Positions 19,787 to 28,122 of a stretch of 30,857 bases of DNA are shown here, piece after piece. A program made the position numbers and the translations under genes. The DNA comes from a virus: positions 1 to 30,857 of IMG/VR virus record IMGVR_UViG_3300034156_000040. The stretch is one strand, 5' to 3'. Positions within the stretch are counted from its first letter, which is position 1; each line of letters opens with the position of its first letter. Under the pieces are notes generated by a model. It did not search any database. It saw only the letters and a program-made list of their open reading frames with translations, and was not told where the DNA came from.

Positions 19787-21058
19787 TCAGATGGATACAC
19801 CCAGAATTTCCAGCTTCTTCACCGGGAATTCCAGCTCAATGCAATAGCCGGCGGCGTCCGCACTGTGCTCAACGCCTTGGGACTTGTCCACGTCCCGGGT
19901 GCCCGGTTTGTAGATTGTCTGTTCGAGCGCGTTGATGAAGTGCCTGCATTTGGAGTTGACACGCATCTTAACCGTTCCGTTGGCTGCGCGCAGCAATCGG
20001 TTCACGGCGTTGACCCGGTCGGCCACAAACGGGTGCTTCCGACGATACTTCTGCTTCTTGAAGCCCTTCTCTTTCAAGATGTCCATGTCGGTCTCGCCCC
20101 GGGCGTGTTGCCGCTGTCCGCCTGCGGGGTCTGGATAGATCGTGACGGCCTTCTGGTGGCGCCAGTATCGCTTGTCCAGCTCAGCGCAAATCTCTTCGGT
20201 GTTCGAGCCGAATAGCACAATCTCGTCCACCGCCCACAGCTCGCCGTTGTCTTGCTTCTGAAAGATCACGGTAGACATCGGGTCGATGTTGAAGTCCATG
20301 CCCACCCAGATCGGCAGCTTTGGATTGAAGGTGTATTGCTCGCCGACGTGTTCCCGACGCTCGAACGGGTAGTAAACCCGGCCAGACATCGACTCGAAGG
20401 AAGCCATGAACTCTTGAGCGAACGACTTGGGGTCCATGTCGTTCATTGCTGCCTGAATTTCACTCTCAGGAATGAACGGCGAGGTGATGGTAGGGAACTG
20501 CCAAGACGCCCAGTCGTTGCGGCGAAGGATGCCCTTGTCGTCCTTGTAGTATTCGCCCCGGGTGCCAGACTTATACAGCTCGTAGAGGTAGTTGTAAGCC
20601 TTTGGCGTCCCGATGAAGATCGCGTGACCCTGTTTGTCGGCCAGTGTCGGCCGCAGAACCTGAGTCCACGTCTCTTCGCTCATGTCTTGGAATTCGTCGA
20701 GCACAAGGAAGTCGATACCGACACCACGCAAGGAGTCAGCCTTGTCAGCGCCTTTCAGGCTGATTTCGGTCTTGTTCACCAGCGTGATTTTCATTTCGGT
20801 TTCGTTGATCTTCTTGATCCACTTCTTCGGGATCGCTTCCTGCAAGTCCGTCCACATAATCTGCTTCGCCATCCGATACGTCGGGGCGACATACCAGATT
20901 TTGCGGCGCGGCTTCTGGGCGTGCTTGATGATCAATACTTTGGACAGCGCGGTCTTACCCCAGCGTCGGCCGGCCACGACAACGCGAAAGCGATGGTGGT
21001 CCTGATAGACCTCCATCTGCTTCGGGTGCAGCGTGAGGGAAACTTTAGGAGCACTCAT
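19787..21058 (-). CDS. terL: Terminase large subunit (packaging ATPase and nuclease)
   Basis: 423 residues. Residues 1-190 form the packaging ATPase: Walker A AGRRWGKT (29-36), Walker B FLVLDE (117-122) with the catalytic Glu, and coupling motif FIGTPKA (148-154). Residues ~245-410 form the RNase H-like nuclease with the three acidic sites at D255 (WVGMDFNID), D310 (YPDPAGG) and D401 (HSADAAGY). All key residues are present, so it should be active. The start ATG at 21058 overlaps the terS stop by four bases. It moves DNA into the capsid and cuts the concatemer. Confidence 0.97.
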   Translation of the reverse strand: MSAPKVSLTLHPKQMEVYQDHHRFRVVVAGRRWGKTALSKVLIIKHAQKPRRKIWYVAPTYRMAKQIMWTDLQEAIPKKWIKKINETEMKITLVNKTEISLKGADKADSLRGVGIDFLVLDEFQDMSEETWTQVLRPTLADKQGHAIFIGTPKAYNYLYELYKSGTRGEYYKDDKGILRRNDWASWQFPTITSPFIPESEIQAAMNDMDPKSFAQEFMASFESMSGRVYYPFERREHVGEQYTFNPKLPIWVGMDFNIDPMSTVIFQKQDNGELWAVDEIVLFGSNTEEICAELDKRYWRHQKAVTIYPDPAGGQRQHARGETDMDILKEKGFKKQKYRRKHPFVADRVNAVNRLLRAANGTVKMRVNSKCRHFINALEQTIYKPGTRDVDKSQGVEHSADAAGYCIELEFPVKKLEILGVSI

Positions 21059-21723
21059 GCTGTTTCCACCACTTCGTTTTCATCGTCGCGTTCGTCGTCA
21101 TCGTCGGCAGGGTCCAGTTCATCTGGGGTTTGCACGGCTGCGCCCACGGACAGACCAAGGTCGGCTTCGTCCCGGTTGCGCAGTGCTTCGAGTTGCTCGG
21201 CCGTCAGCTCCATGATGGTCAGTTCTGGCAGACCGTCTTCGTCGATGAAGTCCGCTTTGTCCAGACCCAGAATCGCCCAGCGCTCTTCTCGAACCTTCTT
21301 CAGCGCCGAGGCGGCGAGGTCGAGTGCTTTGAGGTTGGCAGTTGCCACGGATACTGGATTGCCGCCCTGTTTGGCAGTAAGGATTTCAGACCACACAAGC
21401 TTGCCCAGACCGGCAGCCATTTTGTAGTGGTCTTCCTTGGTCTCGCGAATCCGCGCAGCGGTCACGGACACTTCGTCAATGGAAGCCGCAGTCACCGCTT
21501 CGGCAACCTTGCGCTTGTGCGCTTCAGCTTTGGAGCCCCGCTTGATCGACAACTTGTCGAAGTGGCGGCTGAAATTCGATTTGTGCTTGCCGAACTTGGC
21601 GGCAAGATCGTCCAACGTGACTTCGCCGGATTCCCAGAGCGCTTCCGCCTCGGCCCACTGTTTCGGGGTCAAGCGGGAACCGGGCTTTGCGGCGGCTTTG
21701 GTAATTGGCTTCTTCGCTGTCAT
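21055..21723 (-). CDS. terS: Terminase small subunit
   Basis: 222 residues. Residues ~17-60 form a helix-turn-helix region (TPKQWAEAEALWESGEVTL, then AAKFGKHKSNFSRHF), the DNA-recognition part expected of terS. Residues ~75-165 are helical, as in the ring-forming core, and the C-terminus (~195-222) is strongly acidic (DPADDDDERDDENEVVE), probably the contact to TerL or portal. GAAGG six bases before ATG 21723 supports the start. It recognises the packaging site, which is often near or within this gene. Confidence 0.88.
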   Translation of the reverse strand: MTAKKPITKAAAKPGSRLTPKQWAEAEALWESGEVTLDDLAAKFGKHKSNFSRHFDKLSIKRGSKAEAHKRKVAEAVTAASIDEVSVTAARIRETKEDHYKMAAGLGKLVWSEILTAKQGGNPVSVATANLKALDLAASALKKVREERWAILGLDKADFIDEDGLPELTIMELTAEQLEALRNRDEADLGLSVGAAVQTPDELDPADDDDERDDENEVVETA

Positions 21724-22152: not shown

Positions 22153-22167
22153 TCCGGTGTCCTCAAT

Positions 22168-22305
22168 CTCTTGGGGTTTTGAAAGCTCTTGGGGTTTTGA
22201 TGGTCCGCCTGAAAGTATTTAATAAGTAATTACTTAGGTATTTAGTTATTTAAAGACTTATAGACGAGGGGTCAAAACCCCAAGAGGTTTCCAAAGCCCC
22301 AAGTC
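22168..22305. repeat. Inverted 15-bp repeat cluster bracketing an AT-rich core
   Basis: CTCTTGGGGTTTTGA occurs at 22168-22182 and 22186-22200, and its exact reverse complement at 22272-22286. A degenerate fourth copy (CCAAAGCCCCAAGTC, 22291-22305) follows, in the same orientation as the third. Thus two copies on the left face two on the right. Between them, 22215-22263 is strikingly AT-rich for this genome and contains a perfect 14-bp palindrome TAAGTAATTACTTA (22223-22236). A transcript from the minus strand could form a 15-bp hairpin. Possible roles are operator, replication origin or termination signal; none is proven. Confidence 0.8.
22247..22275 (-). promoter_or_regulatory. Weak candidate promoter inside the repeat cluster
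   Basis: Minus strand TTGACC (22275-22270), 17-bp spacer, TAAATA (22252-22247; three of six matches). The -35 element overlaps the end of the inverted repeat copy at 22272-22286, so a protein bound to the repeat would block it. It would transcribe the 117-residue gene ending at 21799 and perhaps terS. Confidence 0.3.
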
Positions 22306-22600
22306 ATTCGATTTCATCACCGGGAGCGGTAAGAATCGAAGCCAATGAATGTCGGGGGAAATACCCAAGCCCCAACGGTGTCGGTGTAATGGTCTGACGT
22401 TCCCGGCCCCGGCGCACTTCTCGAACACCTTTCACCACCAAACCCTTGTTAATCAACGCCCGGAGCGAGAATTGGAAGCTCTGTTTGCTTGGGGTGTAGT
22501 TCATCGACTCCAGAATCTGGTCGATGTCCAAGTCAGTGCCGTCAGGGTTCCCGGGGCAGATCACCCGTAGTTGCTCAATCTGCTTTTCCGTCAGCCTCAT
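22304..22600 (-). CDS. Small winged-helix-like protein
   Basis: 98 residues from ATG 22600, which overlaps the upstream stop codon (ATGA). The layout is helix (MRLTEKQIEQLRVI), helix (IDQILESMN), recognition-type helix (KQSFQFSLRALINKGLV), then a basic beta wing (VREVRRGRERQTITPTPLGLGYF). This is the usual winged helix-turn-helix pattern, like MarR/PadR-type DNA readers. It is the last gene of the ParB-ABC-GNAT operon and ends immediately before the inverted repeat cluster, so it may regulate there. The DNA-binding function is inferred from fold pattern only. Confidence 0.6.
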   Translation of the reverse strand: MRLTEKQIEQLRVICPGNPDGTDLDIDQILESMNYTPSKQSFQFSLRALINKGLVVKGVREVRRGRERQTITPTPLGLGYFPRHSLASILTAPGDEIE

Positions 22601-23496
22601 ACCCAATCCTCGTCCAAAATCAGTGGTTGATCGACCGGTTGACGGTCAAATGCCGCCAACGGGATGCGCTTTGGCAGCACATTTTCGTAGTCCGGGTTCT
22701 CGTAGACCCCGTAAAGCGGGCTCGCCAGCACCAGTTGCTGCAACGACTTCAGCAGATAGCCAACTTCCATGCCATCCACGCGGCTGGTGCCGTTGAAGCG
22801 GTTGTCACCGGACTTCTCCATGGAGCTGAAGGTGAAGTAGTGGTGGCGCATTTCCGCGACAACTTTGGCTCGAACCTTCTCTGGCATCGCGTTCAGCTCA
22901 GCCATCACGCCAACGTAGTCGCTCGGGTTGCAATCGAACCAGCGCCGGAACCACTGAAGGCCAACCTTGTAGTTCGACGACCGCTTTGGCTCGGTGAAGC
23001 GGATGCCGGCCTTGGCCGCGAACGGGTTGAACTTTGACATGGATGATTGAAACTCGACCAGACGCTTGCCGGTCATTCGCATCATGATGTTCTGCATCCG
23101 ATAGGCGATGCTCGCCCCGCGATACATGGTGTCGAGAACAAGCCGGCTGTTGGTGCAACTGTTGGCATTGATCCACTGTGCGCGATAGCGGTTCATCAGC
23201 GGGGTGTCGCGTCCGCCTTGGTTGGGTCGCAGATGCTCGAACAGCCCGTTGCGACCGGACGACAACATCTTCGGCACGGTCATCACGCCAACGCCAATGG
23301 TCTGCCCATCCAGCACGCAGCGGTAGATGCTCGGGCCAATGCCGAGGTTTTCCGCCTTGTAGTGCAGCTCATGCAGCAGGTTCCAATCGTCGATGGTGCC
23401 GCGTTCGACGTAAATGTTCGGTAGCAGGGAAAGGGAATGCCCTTCCGGGCACTCCCTGCGCTCTACCAGCATGTCCGGGCTGTCAAGAACGATCAC
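22597..23496 (-). CDS. GNAT-fold acyltransferase, COG2401/Mom-like context
   Basis: 299 residues from GTG 23496 (GGGGG five bases upstream, 14-base overlap with the previous gene); ATG 23472 is an alternative. Residues ~36-165 are a GNAT domain: LLHELHYKAE helix, strand YRCVLDGQTIGVGVMTVP, then the acyl-CoA loop motif A SRLVLDTMYRGASIAY (117-132), where R-G-A-S-I-A fits R/Q-x-x-G-x-G/A. The motif SKFNPFAAKAGI (154-165) resembles the NPFFEKAG of the ABC-linked acetyltransferases in COG2401. Residues ~170-299 are a family-specific extension rich in aromatic and basic residues. Mu Mom, which modifies adenine in DNA, is also GNAT-like, but direct homology is not shown. Substrate unknown. Confidence 0.72.
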   Translation of the reverse strand: MIVLDSPDMLVERRECPEGHSLSLLPNIYVERGTIDDWNLLHELHYKAENLGIGPSIYRCVLDGQTIGVGVMTVPKMLSSGRNGLFEHLRPNQGGRDTPLMNRYRAQWINANSCTNSRLVLDTMYRGASIAYRMQNIMMRMTGKRLVEFQSSMSKFNPFAAKAGIRFTEPKRSSNYKVGLQWFRRWFDCNPSDYVGVMAELNAMPEKVRAKVVAEMRHHYFTFSSMEKSGDNRFNGTSRVDGMEVGYLLKSLQQLVLASPLYGVYENPDYENVLPKRIPLAAFDRQPVDQPLILDEDWV

Positions 23497-24028
23497 GTTT
23501 GCCCCCTTTCGGTTTGGACGGCTTAGACGGCTTCTCACGGGCTTTCATCGCTTCAACGAAAGTCGTGGTCGTTTCGGGAACGGTCTCGCCGGCTGCTTCG
23601 GCTGCTGCGATTTCAGCTTCCATCGCCTTGACGTTCGCAGCGTCCAGCAGCGGCTGACACACTTCGAACAGGTGGCCTTGCAGGTAGCAGAACGCTTCGC
23701 TGTTCTCGGCGTCTACCGGAACCCCGGCTCGGTCCAAAATGAACAGGGCTAGGTGACCGATTTCATGAGCCAGCACGCCGTAAGAGCCATCGAACACGCC
23801 AACCAGATACAGCGCGCCGCCCTCTTCGTTTCTCAGCGGGGTGACGCAGCCAAGACAATCGTCGATGTCCTCGGCGCCGTAGTTGGTGGTCGTGAGGAAG
23901 TCGAAAATCTGCTTGTATTCTTCCCGGTCGGTGCAGAAGTAGAACGCTCCACCATAGATCGGGACGTTCAAGTGTGCCTTTTTGTTGGGCCACTTGAATT
24001 TCAGCACTTTCACGTTGATGGATTTCAT
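23483..24028 (-). CDS. HEXXH zinc-peptidase-like protein
   Basis: 181 residues. Residues 80-120 hold GVLAHEIGHLALF with the zinc motif H88-E-I-G-H92 and, about 16-19 residues on, E108 and E111 (AENSEAFCYLQGHLF), candidates for the third ligand. This layout is a recurrent phage metallopeptidase-like family. The C-terminal 40 residues are Ala/Glu, then Lys/Pro-rich and probably disordered. It starts in the ATGA overlap with the ABC gene stop (AAGGA eight bases upstream) and overlaps the GNAT start by 14 bases, so it belongs to the same operon. Substrate unknown. Confidence 0.75.
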   Translation of the reverse strand: MKSINVKVLKFKWPNKKAHLNVPIYGGAFYFCTDREEYKQIFDFLTTTNYGAEDIDDCLGCVTPLRNEEGGALYLVGVFDGSYGVLAHEIGHLALFILDRAGVPVDAENSEAFCYLQGHLFEVCQPLLDAANVKAMEAEIAAAEAAGETVPETTTTFVEAMKAREKPSKPSKPKGGKRDRS

Positions 24029-24678
24029 TGCTTGTATCCTTCTGGTGACTGGATGATTTCGATCTTCTCGCGATAGCGCTTGTCGATGAACAGGTTCGGT
24101 GCCAAGTCATTGACCATGTCGGTGTGAGTCGTGGCAACGATCAGCGTGGCGCCCATCTTGCGAGCCATTTTCTGAAGGTTGAACGCGATCACCTTGGCGG
24201 TGGTCCGGTCCAGCACGGCGAGGAATTCATCCGCGGACCAAACCGCGGCGCCAGACTCGATGATCTTGGCGAGGCGGAACCGGTAGCGTTGGCCGTCGGA
24301 GAGTTCCTTGGGTCGGCGAATAAACAGGTAGGCGTCGTTCAGGCCGGCAATGGACAGGTAGCCCAGCGCTTCAGACGTGGTTTTGCCAATTTGGTCGATC
24401 AGCGGCTTGTCGAGCAGCTCCACTTGGTCGATGTCGGCCACCTTCAGACCTGCCGCGGACATTTGATCCACCAGCTCACGCAGAACGGTGGACTTGCCGG
24501 AACCCGACTGCCCGGTGACGTAGACAATATCGCCCTGCTTGATTTCCAGCTTCTGCTGGTCAAACACGACGAACTCTTTGTCGTCCAGACCCAGACCGAA
24601 TGCCTCGGCAATCTCCAGCACGCGGTCGGAGCGGTCGATGTTGGATTTGAAACGCTTGTCGATCAGATATTCGGTCAC
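24025..24678 (-). CDS. Soluble ABC-type ATPase (stand-alone, no permease)
   Basis: 217 residues from GTG 24678 (GGGGG seven bases upstream, GTGA overlap with the previous gene). Motifs: Walker A GQSGSGKST (56-64), ABC signature LSDGQ (126-130, in place of LSGGQ), Walker B VWSADEF with D150-E151, and switch His185 (TTHTD). This small ABC ATPase, with few residues between Walker A and signature and no transmembrane partner, fits the ATPase half of COG2401, where it is fused to a GNAT domain. Here the GNAT partner is a separate gene two places downstream. Family members probably act as dimeric ATP switches on nucleic acid or protein; the target here is unknown. Confidence 0.82.
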   Translation of the reverse strand: MTEYLIDKRFKSNIDRSDRVLEIAEAFGLGLDDKEFVVFDQQKLEIKQGDIVYVTGQSGSGKSTVLRELVDQMSAAGLKVADIDQVELLDKPLIDQIGKTTSEALGYLSIAGLNDAYLFIRRPKELSDGQRYRFRLAKIIESGAAVWSADEFLAVLDRTTAKVIAFNLQKMARKMGATLIVATTHTDMVNDLAPNLFIDKRYREKIEIIQSPEGYKQ

Positions 24679-24854
24679 TTGGAGCCCCCAGCGAAGGCGT
24701 TGAACACGAACGTGATGAACACGGCGGCGAACACGCAGACCAGACAGATGAAGAAGCCCATCAGCATGCAGGCAGCTTTGATGCACGCCCAGACAGGCTC
24801 ATAGAACACGGCGAAGAACATGGCGACAAGGACGACGATCAGAAAGTCGATCAT
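24675..24854 (-). CDS. Small membrane protein in the ParB-ABC-GNAT operon
   Basis: 59 residues, and coupled at both ends by 4-base overlaps (ATGA with the upstream ParB gene, GTGA with the ABC gene). The sequence is almost wholly hydrophobic: helix one at about residues 2-17 (DFLIVVLVAMFFAVFY), a short EPVWACIKAA link, helix two at about 28-55 (ending FITFVFNAFAGGSK). Four cysteines occur at or near the segments. No family recognised. The tight packing suggests a real gene that may anchor the neighbouring soluble proteins to the membrane. Confidence 0.65.
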   Translation of the reverse strand: MIDFLIVVLVAMFFAVFYEPVWACIKAACMLMGFFICLVCVFAAVFITFVFNAFAGGSK

Positions 24855-25513
24855 TCTGCACCGCCCTTGGCGTAGTAGTCCTTCGAGAACTGCACCAGCG
24901 CGTCGGCGCCGGTCAAGCCGGTTTCCGATTCGAACATGGCGATGAACCGGGCGACATGACGCTCGTCCGAGCCGGTGATGGTCTTGAAGCCGAACACCTT
25001 GTCCAGTTTCACCTGACGATCATCGACTTCCTTCACCTGACGGGTGGATTCAGCCTGCTGGTTGTCCACGGCGAGGTTGATGTCCGGCACGAACGCATCG
25101 ACGTCCAACTTGCCCAGATCGACGTCGAGGAAGTCCAGCTCCTTCTTGTCGAAGATGCCTTCGAGGTCGAAGTCGAGGGTTGCCAGTTCCTGTTTGAGCA
25201 GGTCGCTGTCGATACCGCTGATTGCAACCCGGTTGTCAGCGAGCCGCGCCGCCCGCACCTGTTCAGGGCTCAAGTCACGACGCACCAGCACCGGCACCTG
25301 TTTCTGACCCAGACGGATAGCCGCGAGCCGGCGCCCGTGGCCCTTGATGATCACACCCTTGTCGTCAACGACGATTGGCTGATCCCAGCCGGTGGCTTGA
25401 ATGGCGTTCGCGATCTTCTCGACCTGCGCCGGGTCATGGGTCTTCGAGTTCAGATCGTATGGAACGAGCTTGTCGATGTCCCAGACTTCGATTTGCATGG
25501 ATGGTTTGCTCAT
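24851..25513 (-). CDS. ParB/Srx-fold protein (second copy)
   Basis: 220 residues. Residues ~5-100 form the N-terminal ParB domain: IEVWDIDKLVPYDLNSKTH opening, DPAQVEKIANAIQATGW helix, QPIVVDDKGVIIKGHGRRL with the conserved GHGRR (58-62), then ADNRVAI. ParB/Srx-fold domains bind and hydrolyse CTP in chromosome partition proteins; phage copies are often tied to DNA modification or to nucleases. No ParB helix-turn-helix is evident after the domain. Instead there is an acidic middle (~105-140) and a C-terminal helical part. It overlaps both neighbours by four bases. Confidence 0.82.
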   Translation of the reverse strand: MSKPSMQIEVWDIDKLVPYDLNSKTHDPAQVEKIANAIQATGWDQPIVVDDKGVIIKGHGRRLAAIRLGQKQVPVLVRRDLSPEQVRAARLADNRVAISGIDSDLLKQELATLDFDLEGIFDKKELDFLDVDLGKLDVDAFVPDINLAVDNQQAESTRQVKEVDDRQVKLDKVFGFKTITGSDERHVARFIAMFESETGLTGADALVQFSKDYYAKGGAE

Positions 25514-25659
25514 TGCACTTTACCGTCGAGGAAGGTGAGAAATTCGTGAAGGGTCATGGATTGAGCCTCTTCATCGGGGATGGTTTCGAGGTTGCGATAA
25601 TCCACGTCGTCATCGACATACGGGAAGTCGTCCAGATCGGTGCTGTCGTCGTCAACCAT
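25510..25659 (-). CDS. 49-residue acidic protein between two ParB genes
   Basis: ATG 25659 lies two bases after the upstream ParB stop; the stop codon overlaps the next ATG (ATGA). The N-terminal half is extremely acidic (VDDDSTDLDDFPYVDDDVD), and the C-terminal part is a likely short helix (SMTLHEFLTFLDGKV). No family recognised. Acidic charge and position suggest a DNA mimic or a small partner of the ParB proteins, but this is only inference. It is too small for many gene finders, and perfect fit between stop and start codons is the main evidence. Confidence 0.6.
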   Translation of the reverse strand: MVDDDSTDLDDFPYVDDDVDYRNLETIPDEEAQSMTLHEFLTFLDGKVQ

Positions 25660-25661
25660 AC

Positions 25662-26315
25662 TCACACTTCCACGCGATTGAGCAGCCAGACCAGAGCGTC
25701 ACCGGCATTGACCAACGAGTCCTTTTCATCGAAGCCTTGAAGGCGCATGACCTTCTCCAGCTTGTCGCTCAAGCCCTGAACGTCTTCGGCTGGCACGCGA
25801 AAGCGCATGGTTTGGTGGGTTTGCGCTTTGGCCGGTGAAGGCGCTGAAGTGCCCGCCAACATATCTTCCTCAGACATGTCCAGCTCGTCGAGGTTAATAC
25901 TGACCGAAGCGAAAATGTTCGAGACTTCGCTATCGCTGAAGGGCATGAACGACGTGATGTCTTCCACGCTACCCAGCTCTTCGAGCAGTCGGGCCAGCGC
26001 CAGAGTGTCGTCGCTACCGTAGCGGGCATTGTCCACAAGGCCGATTTCTTTGGCCTTCTTGTCGGTGATTTTGCCCAGATTGAAGATCGGGACCGAGGCG
26101 AGACCAACACGGACAGCAGACTGCGCCCGGTGTTCGCCGCCCAGAATTTGAAGGGTGCCGTCAGCGAGTTCGCGGACAACGATCGGTTTGAACATATCCA
26201 GCTTCGAGACGGACGCGTCGAGTTTCTTTTCGAGTTCCGGCGAGCAAGAGTTGGTGTTCCACGGGTTCGGCGCAAGACTCTTGGGGTCGGCCGAAGGATA
26301 TGCAGATTGGGTCAC
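25662..26315 (-). CDS. ParB/Srx-fold protein (first copy), operon leader gene
   Basis: 217 residues from GTG 26315, with AAAGGA eight bases upstream. The ParB-like N-terminus includes LEKKLDASVSKLDMFKPIVV and LQILGGEHRAQSAVRVGLASV, with G-G-E-H-R (59-63) as the nucleotide-site motif, then VDNARYG. This copy differs from the second: GGEHR in place of GHGRR, and a longer C-terminal part (~110-217) ending in a helical segment (DALVWLLNRVEV). The domain is known for CTP binding in ParB, but activity here is untested. It is the first gene after the divergent promoter region and likely sets the operon's translation. Confidence 0.8.
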   Translation of the reverse strand: MTQSAYPSADPKSLAPNPWNTNSCSPELEKKLDASVSKLDMFKPIVVRELADGTLQILGGEHRAQSAVRVGLASVPIFNLGKITDKKAKEIGLVDNARYGSDDTLALARLLEELGSVEDITSFMPFSDSEVSNIFASVSINLDELDMSEEDMLAGTSAPSPAKAQTHQTMRFRVPAEDVQGLSDKLEKVMRLQGFDEKDSLVNAGDALVWLLNRVEV

Positions 26316-26394: not shown

Positions 26395-28122
26395 ATGATC
26401 ACAGTCACCATCGCCCATGCCGCTGTCAACGCCAGACTTCACCAAGCCTCTCGCGAAGTGAAGCTGGAAGTGCAGCAAATTCTGTCGTATGACGTGCCCG
26501 GGGCCGAACAGAGCGCCGCTTTCAAGTCCCGTGGTTGGGATGGTCGAAGCTCGTTCCTGAACTTCCGCGACGGCACCTTCCCGGCCGGCTTCGTCCATCT
26601 GGTGCAAGCGCACCTGCAAAGACGCGGCTACAAGGTCAACATCGTCAAGAAGCCCCTTCCCGAGCTGCTGGGGCCAGAGAAGCCCGTGGTCGATGCCTTC
26701 GGCGACGATCCCGACTATGACTATCAGGACGAGACCGTAGAGCGTCTGTGCCGTCATGGGAAAATCATCGCCCAGATCGCAACCGGTGGCGGCAAGTCCC
26801 GTATCGCGAAGAAGGCGTTTGCCCGGGTTGGCCGGCCGACGCTGTTCCTCACGACCCGCTCCCTGCTGATGTATCAGATGAAAGCCGCCTTCGAAAACGA
26901 CATGGGCATTGAAGTGTCGGTTCTTGGCGACGGCCAGTTTGGTTCGGTCAGCGTGGACGCCGACGGCAAAGAGACCCGCTCCATCAAGCGCATGACGGTC
27001 GGCATGGTGCAGACCTTGAACGCCCGGTTGGAGGTCATCACGCTGCAAGGCGAGTTCGAGAAGGTCTATGACGCGATCATCAAGAAGGAGCAGGCAGAGT
27101 TCACGGCCAAAAAGACCGCGCTGAAGCTGATGAAGGTCAGTTCTGCCGATCAGGCGCGCATCTTGAAAGAGTTCGCCGAAGAGCAGGAAAGCAACCGGGT
27201 TGACGCCGAAGGCATCAAGCGCACCGCGGCAGCCAAGGTCAAGAAACAGGACGCGGTTCGCGCCCAGACCATCGCCCTGTTGGGCAAGTTCGAGCTGGTC
27301 ATTCTGGAAGAGGCACACGAGGCGTCCGGCGCCGGGTTCTACGGGATCATGTCCCACTGTATCAACGCCCACTACCGTTTGGCCCTGACCGCTACGCCGT
27401 TCATGAAAGACGACCAAGAAGCGAACATGAAGCTGATGGCCGTGGCCGGCCCGGTCGGGATCAAGGTTTCTGAGGAAATGCTGATCGACCGCGGCATCCT
27501 TGCGAAGCCGTTCTTCAAATACGTCAAAATGAAGACCCCGGCTGCGAAGTTGTTCCGGGGCACCGCGTGGGCCAGTGCTTACCGGCTCGGCGTGGTCGAG
27601 TATGAGGCGCGCAACGATGCGATTGTCCACGAGGCGGTGATGGGCAAGCTTTACGGCCTGACCACGATGTGTTTGATCCAGCACAAGGCTCACGGCGAAC
27701 TGCTGGCGCGCAAAATGATCGCGGCGGGCCTGCGGGTTGAATTCATTTACGGCGAGAGCGACCACGACACCCGGAAGCGTCAACTGAGAAAGCTGGCTGA
27801 TGGGCTGCTGGACGTTCTGATCGGCTCGACCATTCTCGACGTCGGCGTGGACGTGCCGGCTGTGGGCTTGATCATTCTGGCCGGTGGCGGCAAAGCAGAG
27901 GTCGCTTTGCGTCAGCGCATTGGCCGTGGGTTGCGCAAGAAGAAGTTCGGGCCGAACGTGGCGTTTGTAGTCGACTTCATGGACCTTGCGAACGATCACC
28001 TGCGCGGGCACTACCAGCAACGTCGGGCGATTGTGGAGGGCACAAAGGGGTTCGGCGAGAACGTTATCCCTGACGGGGCCGAGTTTGACTATGAGGCGCT
28101 GGGATTCAAGAAAGCAGCGTAA
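26395..28122 (+). CDS. uvsW: DEAH-box SF2 helicase, T4 UvsW-like
   Basis: 575 residues. In T4, UvsW unwinds branched DNA and R-loops and helps switch replication modes. Visible helicase motifs: an N-terminal pre-domain (~1-100), Walker A IATGGGKS at 128-135, LFLTTRSLL (150-158), VGMVQTLN (202-209), motif II ILEEAHEA (303-310; DEAH variant EEAH), LALTATP (329-335), VLIGSTILDVGVDVPAV (motif V region) and QRIGRGLRKKK (motif VI). Between VGMVQTLN and motif II lies an extra ~85-residue charged helical insert (about 211-298). Start ATG 26395 has AAGG eight bases upstream. It has its own terminator at 28137. Confidence 0.87.
   Translation: MITVTIAHAAVNARLHQASREVKLEVQQILSYDVPGAEQSAAFKSRGWDGRSSFLNFRDGTFPAGFVHLVQAHLQRRGYKVNIVKKPLPELLGPEKPVVDAFGDDPDYDYQDETVERLCRHGKIIAQIATGGGKSRIAKKAFARVGRPTLFLTTRSLLMYQMKAAFENDMGIEVSVLGDGQFGSVSVDADGKETRSIKRMTVGMVQTLNARLEVITLQGEFEKVYDAIIKKEQAEFTAKKTALKLMKVSSADQARILKEFAEEQESNRVDAEGIKRTAAAKVKKQDAVRAQTIALLGKFELVILEEAHEASGAGFYGIMSHCINAHYRLALTATPFMKDDQEANMKLMAVAGPVGIKVSEEMLIDRGILAKPFFKYVKMKTPAAKLFRGTAWASAYRLGVVEYEARNDAIVHEAVMGKLYGLTTMCLIQHKAHGELLARKMIAAGLRVEFIYGESDHDTRKRQLRKLADGLLDVLIGSTILDVGVDVPAVGLIILAGGGKAEVALRQRIGRGLRKKKFGPNVAFVVDFMDLANDHLRGHYQQRRAIVEGTKGFGENVIPDGAEFDYEALGFKKAA

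Follow-up and report, generated by a model that had tools for sequence, protein, structure and literature searches.

The window analysed here, the whole 30,857-base stretch of IMG/VR virus record IMGVR_UViG_3300034156_000040, comes from a phage-plasmid-type genome of ~110 kilobases (kb) and carries an operon of eight genes, five of which form a conserved core: two ParB/Srx-fold proteins (ParB1 and ParB2), a soluble ABC ATPase, a GNAT acyltransferase and a small winged-helix-like protein. The core is the standard set of a group of SSU5-type phages; its ABC and GNAT proteins are two halves of one protein type, found elsewhere as a single chain; and in closely related Porphyromonas phages the single-chain form replaces mom at the same spot. 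The core operon is most likely a machine that acylates the phage's own DNA before packaging, a reading we hold as probable but well short of certain.

The order ParB1-ParB2-ABC-GNAT-winged helix, lying between an opposite-strand helicase gene and the genes for the terminase small and large subunits (TerS-TerL), is seen in at least 119 of the 172 loci compared, whose hosts belong to many genera. Near-identical loci were counted too, so that the figure speaks of recurrence, not of independent events; some of the remaining loci are cut by contig ends. The phages concerned are of the SSU5/nickie/RHEph10 type, with genomes of ~110 kb. The window's TerL DNA matches that of all 12 relatives tested (67-76% identity), 11 of them records of 107-114 kb; therefore, the window is taken as a fragment of a genome of this type, with which it has terminase and gene order in common. 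Thirty annotated phages have a GNAT relative (including Pseudomonas nickie, Rhizobium RHEph10, Stenotrophomonas ANB28, Salmonella SSU5, and Klebsiella and Escherichia relatives), and viral contigs add 280 candidate stretches; at the DNA level, searching the phage records turned up nothing close. Escherichia phage PhiR41_1, for which E. coli K-12 is listed in the record, is one carrier of the system. The original prediction for this stretch, made from its letters alone, held that the combination is not a standard phage set. For the core this was wrong: the co-occurrence search that it proposed found the set together again and again, and the recurrence of the five-gene order is beyond chance.

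A mixed operon, in which genes of unrelated function share a promoter and no single pathway, would account for the three genes of the eight that are variable cargo. It does not account for five core genes that keep their order across host genera even at low identity, nor for the fusion of ABC and GNAT elsewhere, and we consider it quite unlikely.

All eight genes lie on the minus strand with frames intact, as the original prediction had it, and its coordinates agree with ours. Downstream from ParB1, the junctions are a 2-base gap and then overlaps of 4, 4, 4, 4, 14 and 4 bases, taking the starts that best fit the relatives. In operon order, the genes are:

25662 to 26315, minus strand, GTG start at 26315: ParB1, ParB/Srx fold (phrog_723), first gene of the operon
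25510 to 25659, minus strand, ATG start at 25659, after the 2-base gap: acidic protein of 49 residues, variable cargo
24851 to 25513, minus strand, start at 25513, overlap 4: ParB2, ParB/Srx fold (phrog_930)
24675 to 24854, minus strand, start at 24854, overlap 4: small membrane protein of 59 residues, hydrophobic in sequence, variable cargo
24025 to 24678, minus strand, GTG start at 24678, overlap 4: soluble ABC ATPase, the ABC half of the ABC-GNAT pair
23483 to 24028, minus strand, start at 24028, overlap 4: HEXXH protein, putative peptidase, variable cargo
22597 to 23496, minus strand, GTG start at 23496, overlap 14: predicted GNAT acyltransferase (phrog_886); an alternative start at 23538 is also open and gives a 313-residue form
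22304 to 22600, minus strand, start at 22600, overlap 4: small winged-helix-like putative DNA-binding protein (phrog_900), last core gene

The ABC protein matches Pfam ABC_tran (3.7e-10) and its catalytic motifs are complete, as they are in nearly all of 143 relatives (Walker A in 141, signature in 140, Walker B DEF and H-loop in 143 each); no permease gene is present in the operon. Its identity with the ABC portion of an ABC::GNAT fusion from Bathyarchaeota is 49%. The GNAT belongs to phrog_886 (1.6e-126), and its profile aligns with the GNAT half of the fusions (hhalign 98.7%, E 1.5e-16). Its predicted model (predicted local distance difference test, pLDDT, 88) matches solved GNATs in Foldseek at probability 1.0 and E 6e-5, and in a library of predicted virus structures the Leptospira LE4 fusion and a Mom stand among its first six matches. 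An HYK motif is present in 147 of 147 GNAT relatives; its invariant His and Tyr are residues 59 and 60 of the 313-residue form. No Pfam GNAT model matches the window protein; PADLOC, NCBIfam and Pfam give it no name; a profile search of PDB sequences returned only chance-like matches to designed repeat proteins. The GNAT assignment is thus a predicted one, drawn from the comparison with the fusions, the modelled fold and its Foldseek matches. Both the permease-less ABC ATPase and the GNAT of the original prediction are upheld by these results.

The locus therefore has what marks an ABC-coupled GNAT: a GNAT homologous to those of the fusions, and a soluble ABC protein with intact motifs and no permease, the two adjacent or fused. 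As the two domains are fused in Bathyarchaeota, in Planctomycetes and in phages, we treat ABC and GNAT as one functional unit. Acyl base modification was predicted earlier for ABC-coupled GNATs by the Iyer/Aravind group (PMC7824862; phage pT24 is an example), so that a system of acyl-modifying kind is not new. The predicted system has the same two enzyme domains, and its fused forms are homologous to the window's ABC and GNAT; the operon differs from it in having separate ABC and GNAT genes, two ParBs, a winged-helix-like protein, cargo slots and a home in SSU5-type phages.

A transporter is what database names would suggest, as the families that hold the GNAT and ABC genes (phrog_886 and phrog_293) are labelled 'ABC transporter'. 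The name misleads: phrog_886, called 'ABC transporter ATP-binding subunit', is a GNAT family without an ABC domain, and the operon has no permease. With ABC fused to GNAT elsewhere, we reject the transporter reading. The same misnomer is attached to the GNAT gene in RefSeq entries such as YP_009620677.1. Some records bear the name 'ABC-type ATPase fused to a predicted acetyltransferase domain', and the GNAT probably acquired its transporter name from a fusion-protein record of this kind. If the reading preferred here is true, a phage gene listed as an 'ABC transporter' is a base-modifying acyltransferase.

Bathyarchaeota (loci L155 and L156), Alienimonas (L163) and many phages have fusions of ~360-500 residues; the fusion query also matches a Tenacibaculum phage pT24 locus. 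ParB often lies upstream of such fusions, and terminase close by. In Alienimonas a ParB-like domain, the fusion and a small open reading frame (ORF) precede TerL and portal; in Leptospira LE4 the order is ParB, fusion, then TerL and portal; the ParB-ABC-GNAT arrangement is present in a Streptococcus prophage as well. Of 11 annotated fusion loci, 5 have ParB directly upstream of the fusion, as do 20 of 32 from IMG/VR; among archaeal-type loci, 25 of 44 have a recognisable TerL no more than 3 kb away. Gordonia phage NHagos links ParB, fusion, a formyltransferase-like gene and terminase via overlaps. In Gordonia phage Jace, ParB and fusion are followed by an aspartate decarboxylase (2e-33) and a CoA-transferase III-like gene (2e-8). 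The fusion has this pair behind it at three loci (L181, L270 and L292), with a CoA-transferase match just under the family cut-off at the last of these; in several other loci a Formyl_trans_N gene follows the fusion. Aspartate decarboxylase was seldom found among phage records (15 of 50,697, many of which are unannotated assemblies). The decarboxylase and CoA-transferase may possibly supply acyl-CoA, and neighbours of these kinds, the formyltransferase included, are as expected for an enzyme that uses acyl-CoA. Some of the fusion neighbours given here may have been reported already with the original 2013 prediction of ABC-coupled GNATs. A Gordonia phage gene annotated 'tRNA-methyltransferase' (L174 2312-2962) in reality matches Formyl_trans_N.

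A pointer to DNA comes from Porphyromonas phages. A stretch of 4,183 bases that runs through the tail genes is 91.8% identical between phages 011a and 015a, which also have the right end in common (81% over 91 bases); between these flanks, 011a carries ABC::GNAT and a formyltransferase, and 015a a Mom homologue (Mom match 8e-20). In the same right-end slot, 007a and 008a have an ABC::GNAT-sized gene with a formyltransferase, 012a and 013a an acetyltransferase as long as the Mom homologue, and 010a no annotated gene; for these five phages, annotation, gene length and position serve to tell what the slot holds, and 008a is matched by the fusion query too. A comparable placement is seen in Pseudomonas: the module follows a tail-fibre assembly gene in Komp_PAO1_1, and mom follows the tail genes in Baskent_P5. 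Thus ABC::GNAT relatives occupy the mom slot of sibling phages. Mom of phage Mu, which makes an N6-adenine modification, has the GNAT fold, as does the operon's protein in its predicted model, and the best alignments place an HY pair at the equivalent position; Mom lacks an ABC partner. By sequence, the GNAT is rejected as a Mom homologue: Mom profiles of 5 and 14 members gave no significant match, and of the Mom signatures HYS, ELNRMW and QSFAD only HY is in common, as HYK. The analogy with Mom in the original prediction therefore stands for fold and for the genomic position of the ABC::GNAT homologue in other phages, and fails for sequence kinship. Directly upstream of ABC::GNAT, small ORFs that are alike (42 and 49 residues; FKYK...DE..Q..F..LK..G) were observed in Porphyromonas and Pseudomonas phages (L182 4307-4435 and L183 4355-4504).

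An alternative perspective supposes that the ABC-GNAT pair acylates a protein (terminase, capsid protein or host RNA polymerase) and so steers packaging or host takeover, the link with terminase reflecting a packaging role. That link holds in bacterial phages and archaeal viruses alike, most of the solved GNATs matched act on small molecules or proteins, and there are phage GNATs known to modify RNA polymerase (PMC7824862). Against it stand the Porphyromonas module, which takes mom's place at the end of the genome, and the match of ParB2 with the ParB portion of phage DNA methyltransferases; we judge the protein target unlikely. RNA is a further candidate: a GNAT coupled to an ATPase could acetylate cytidine in tRNA or rRNA, as TmcA/NAT10 do. 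In these enzymes, too, an ATPase is coupled to a nucleobase-acylating GNAT, and Foldseek has them among its matches (2zpa, E 1.5e-3; 9j3c, E 1.3e-3). Their ATPase is a helicase-type module and not an ABC protein; they act on RNA and have, to our knowledge, no ParB or terminase linkage. An RNA target seems highly improbable, since the linkage to ParB and terminase, like the exchange with mom, speaks for DNA.

The two ParBs admit yet another account. ParB1 matches Pfam ParB_N (2.3e-8) and phrog_723 (1.4e-55); ParB2 matches ParB_N at 4.6e-5, under that model's curated cut-off, and phrog_930 (2.8e-83), so that the two ParB/Srx-fold proteins first read from the sequence are borne out. ParB_N was the only domain that the Pfam scan detected in either, no search specific for helix-turn-helix domains having been made. 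Some relatives are phage-plasmids, and eight relatives yielded no ParB_N protein beyond the operon pair; the ParBs and the ABC protein might therefore form a plasmid-maintenance or chromosome-organisation system with the GNAT as regulator. A ParA-type ATPase, however, was found in only three of the eight and never adjacent (nearest ~3 kb), which leads us to reject a ParABS partition system, and the same ParB-ABC-GNAT arrangement is present in lytic Leptospira LE4 and in the Streptococcus prophage; the maintenance account is very unlikely. ParB2 also matches the N-terminal ParB part of the phage DNA methyltransferases (phrog_498, 3.1e-36). A ParB-fold protein beside a DNA base-modifying enzyme has a parallel in the Dpd deazaguanine system, where DpdB is a ParB-like ATPase that aids base modification (PMC12839542), although Dpd uses transglycosylase chemistry, without GNAT or ABC.

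DNA acylation by the core could proceed as follows. ABC ATPase and GNAT would work as one ATP-driven acyltransferase, split here and a single chain in other viruses; the ABC dimer would bind or deform DNA so that a base becomes reachable; the GNAT would transfer an acyl group from acyl-CoA to the exocyclic amine of that base in phage DNA; the ParB/Srx proteins may recognise, load or regulate the enzyme on phage DNA; and the winged-helix-like protein could control the operon or bind near the terminase region. Modification would come late, before packaging by terminase, and would shield the phage from restriction. In the window's clade the donor would be host acyl-CoA, because the extra supply genes were absent from the eight relatives of that clade searched.

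Several observations weigh against this account. Aspartate decarboxylase and formyltransferase genes were absent from all eight window-clade relatives; the exchange with mom is seen for the distant fusions and not in the window's clade. The Mom profile reaches a probability of only 1.6% with the window clade and 15.6% with the fusions, which by sequence leaves both outside the Mom family, and the solved Mom 8bv8 ranks only 37th among PDB matches in Foldseek. For many GNATs the substrate is a protein or a small molecule. The passages searched in papers on LE3/LE4 and on phage-plasmids contain no restriction or nucleoside test, and the literature searched holds no experiment on any family member. 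Nonetheless, modification of nucleic acid or anti-restriction, the leading idea of the original prediction, is the best supported and agrees with PMC7824862, with DNA as the presumed target. If it is true, phage-plasmids of a common group have a DNA modification that is still uncharacterised, which would bear on the restriction resistance of these phages.

A broader perspective would make ParB-ABC-GNAT a widespread class of packaging-linked DNA hypermodification, in bacterial phages and archaeal viruses, with an acyl group that varies by phage: derived from beta-alanine where aspartate decarboxylase and CoA-transferase are at hand (as would be expected for Jace), formylated where there is a formyltransferase (as for NHagos), host-derived in the SSU5 type. 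We offer this tentatively, as somewhat less than an even chance. The decarboxylase, CoA-transferase and formyltransferase neighbours do supply concrete guesses for the chemical group and, with the natural exchange for mom in Porphyromonas phages, make a long-standing prediction directly testable.

The original prediction also took the coupling of all eight genes to imply one complex or pathway. This may hold for the conserved five and does not for the acidic, membrane and HEXXH genes, which form a variable cargo layer whose content differs between phages. In the 137 loci whose five-gene core is complete, the ABC-GNAT slot is occupied in 117, ParB1-ParB2 in 78 and ParB2-ABC in 60; the winged-helix gene is kept directly after GNAT, with a gene between in only 8. 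Cargo in relatives includes thioredoxins, Tad2-like anti-Thoeris domains and HEXXH proteins. The window's 49-residue protein (16 D+E, 2 K+R) had no match in a Pfam search and has a similar protein in few of the compared loci; the 59-residue membrane protein has no significant family match in Pfam or PHROG, and slots of some relatives hold other small hydrophobic proteins.

The HEXXH protein belongs to phrog_1365 (1.1e-23). H-E-x-x-H and a downstream Glu, the motif of metallopeptidases, are kept in 11 of 11 aligned sequences, and HEXXH ORFs occur in 54 of the 137 relatives as against 1.5% of background ORFs. A structure search with its predicted model (pLDDT 80) gave no match with E below 0.001; the peptidase first proposed is thus kept as to motif and unmatched as to structure, and its activity is putative. 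HEXXH proteins of several unrelated-looking types were seen in differing operon slots (for example, L043 1518-1886 and L119 1592-2143). Tad2-like anti-Thoeris genes (PF11195) are inserted in the slots of relatives (L006 7077-7367; L062 4637-5041), which suggests that the slots collect anti-defence genes.

Around the operon, three neighbours are conserved in relatives:

26395 to 28122, plus strand, divergent: UvsW-like DEAD/DEAH helicase, the opposite-strand helicase upstream of ParB1
21055 to 21723, minus strand: terminase small subunit position, downstream of the winged-helix gene
19787 to 21058, minus strand: terminase large subunit, from TerL DNA identity and gene order

The winged-helix-like protein matches phrog_900 (1.5e-23); its fold is as assigned in the original prediction, and no family model confirms it. 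Downstream of its gene, the AT-rich non-coding stretch 22165-22302 of the window contains two direct repeats of CTTGGGGTTTTGA, with an inverted copy of the repeat 89 bases off (18 nucleotides, 94%); this stretch is a possible binding, packaging or origin site.

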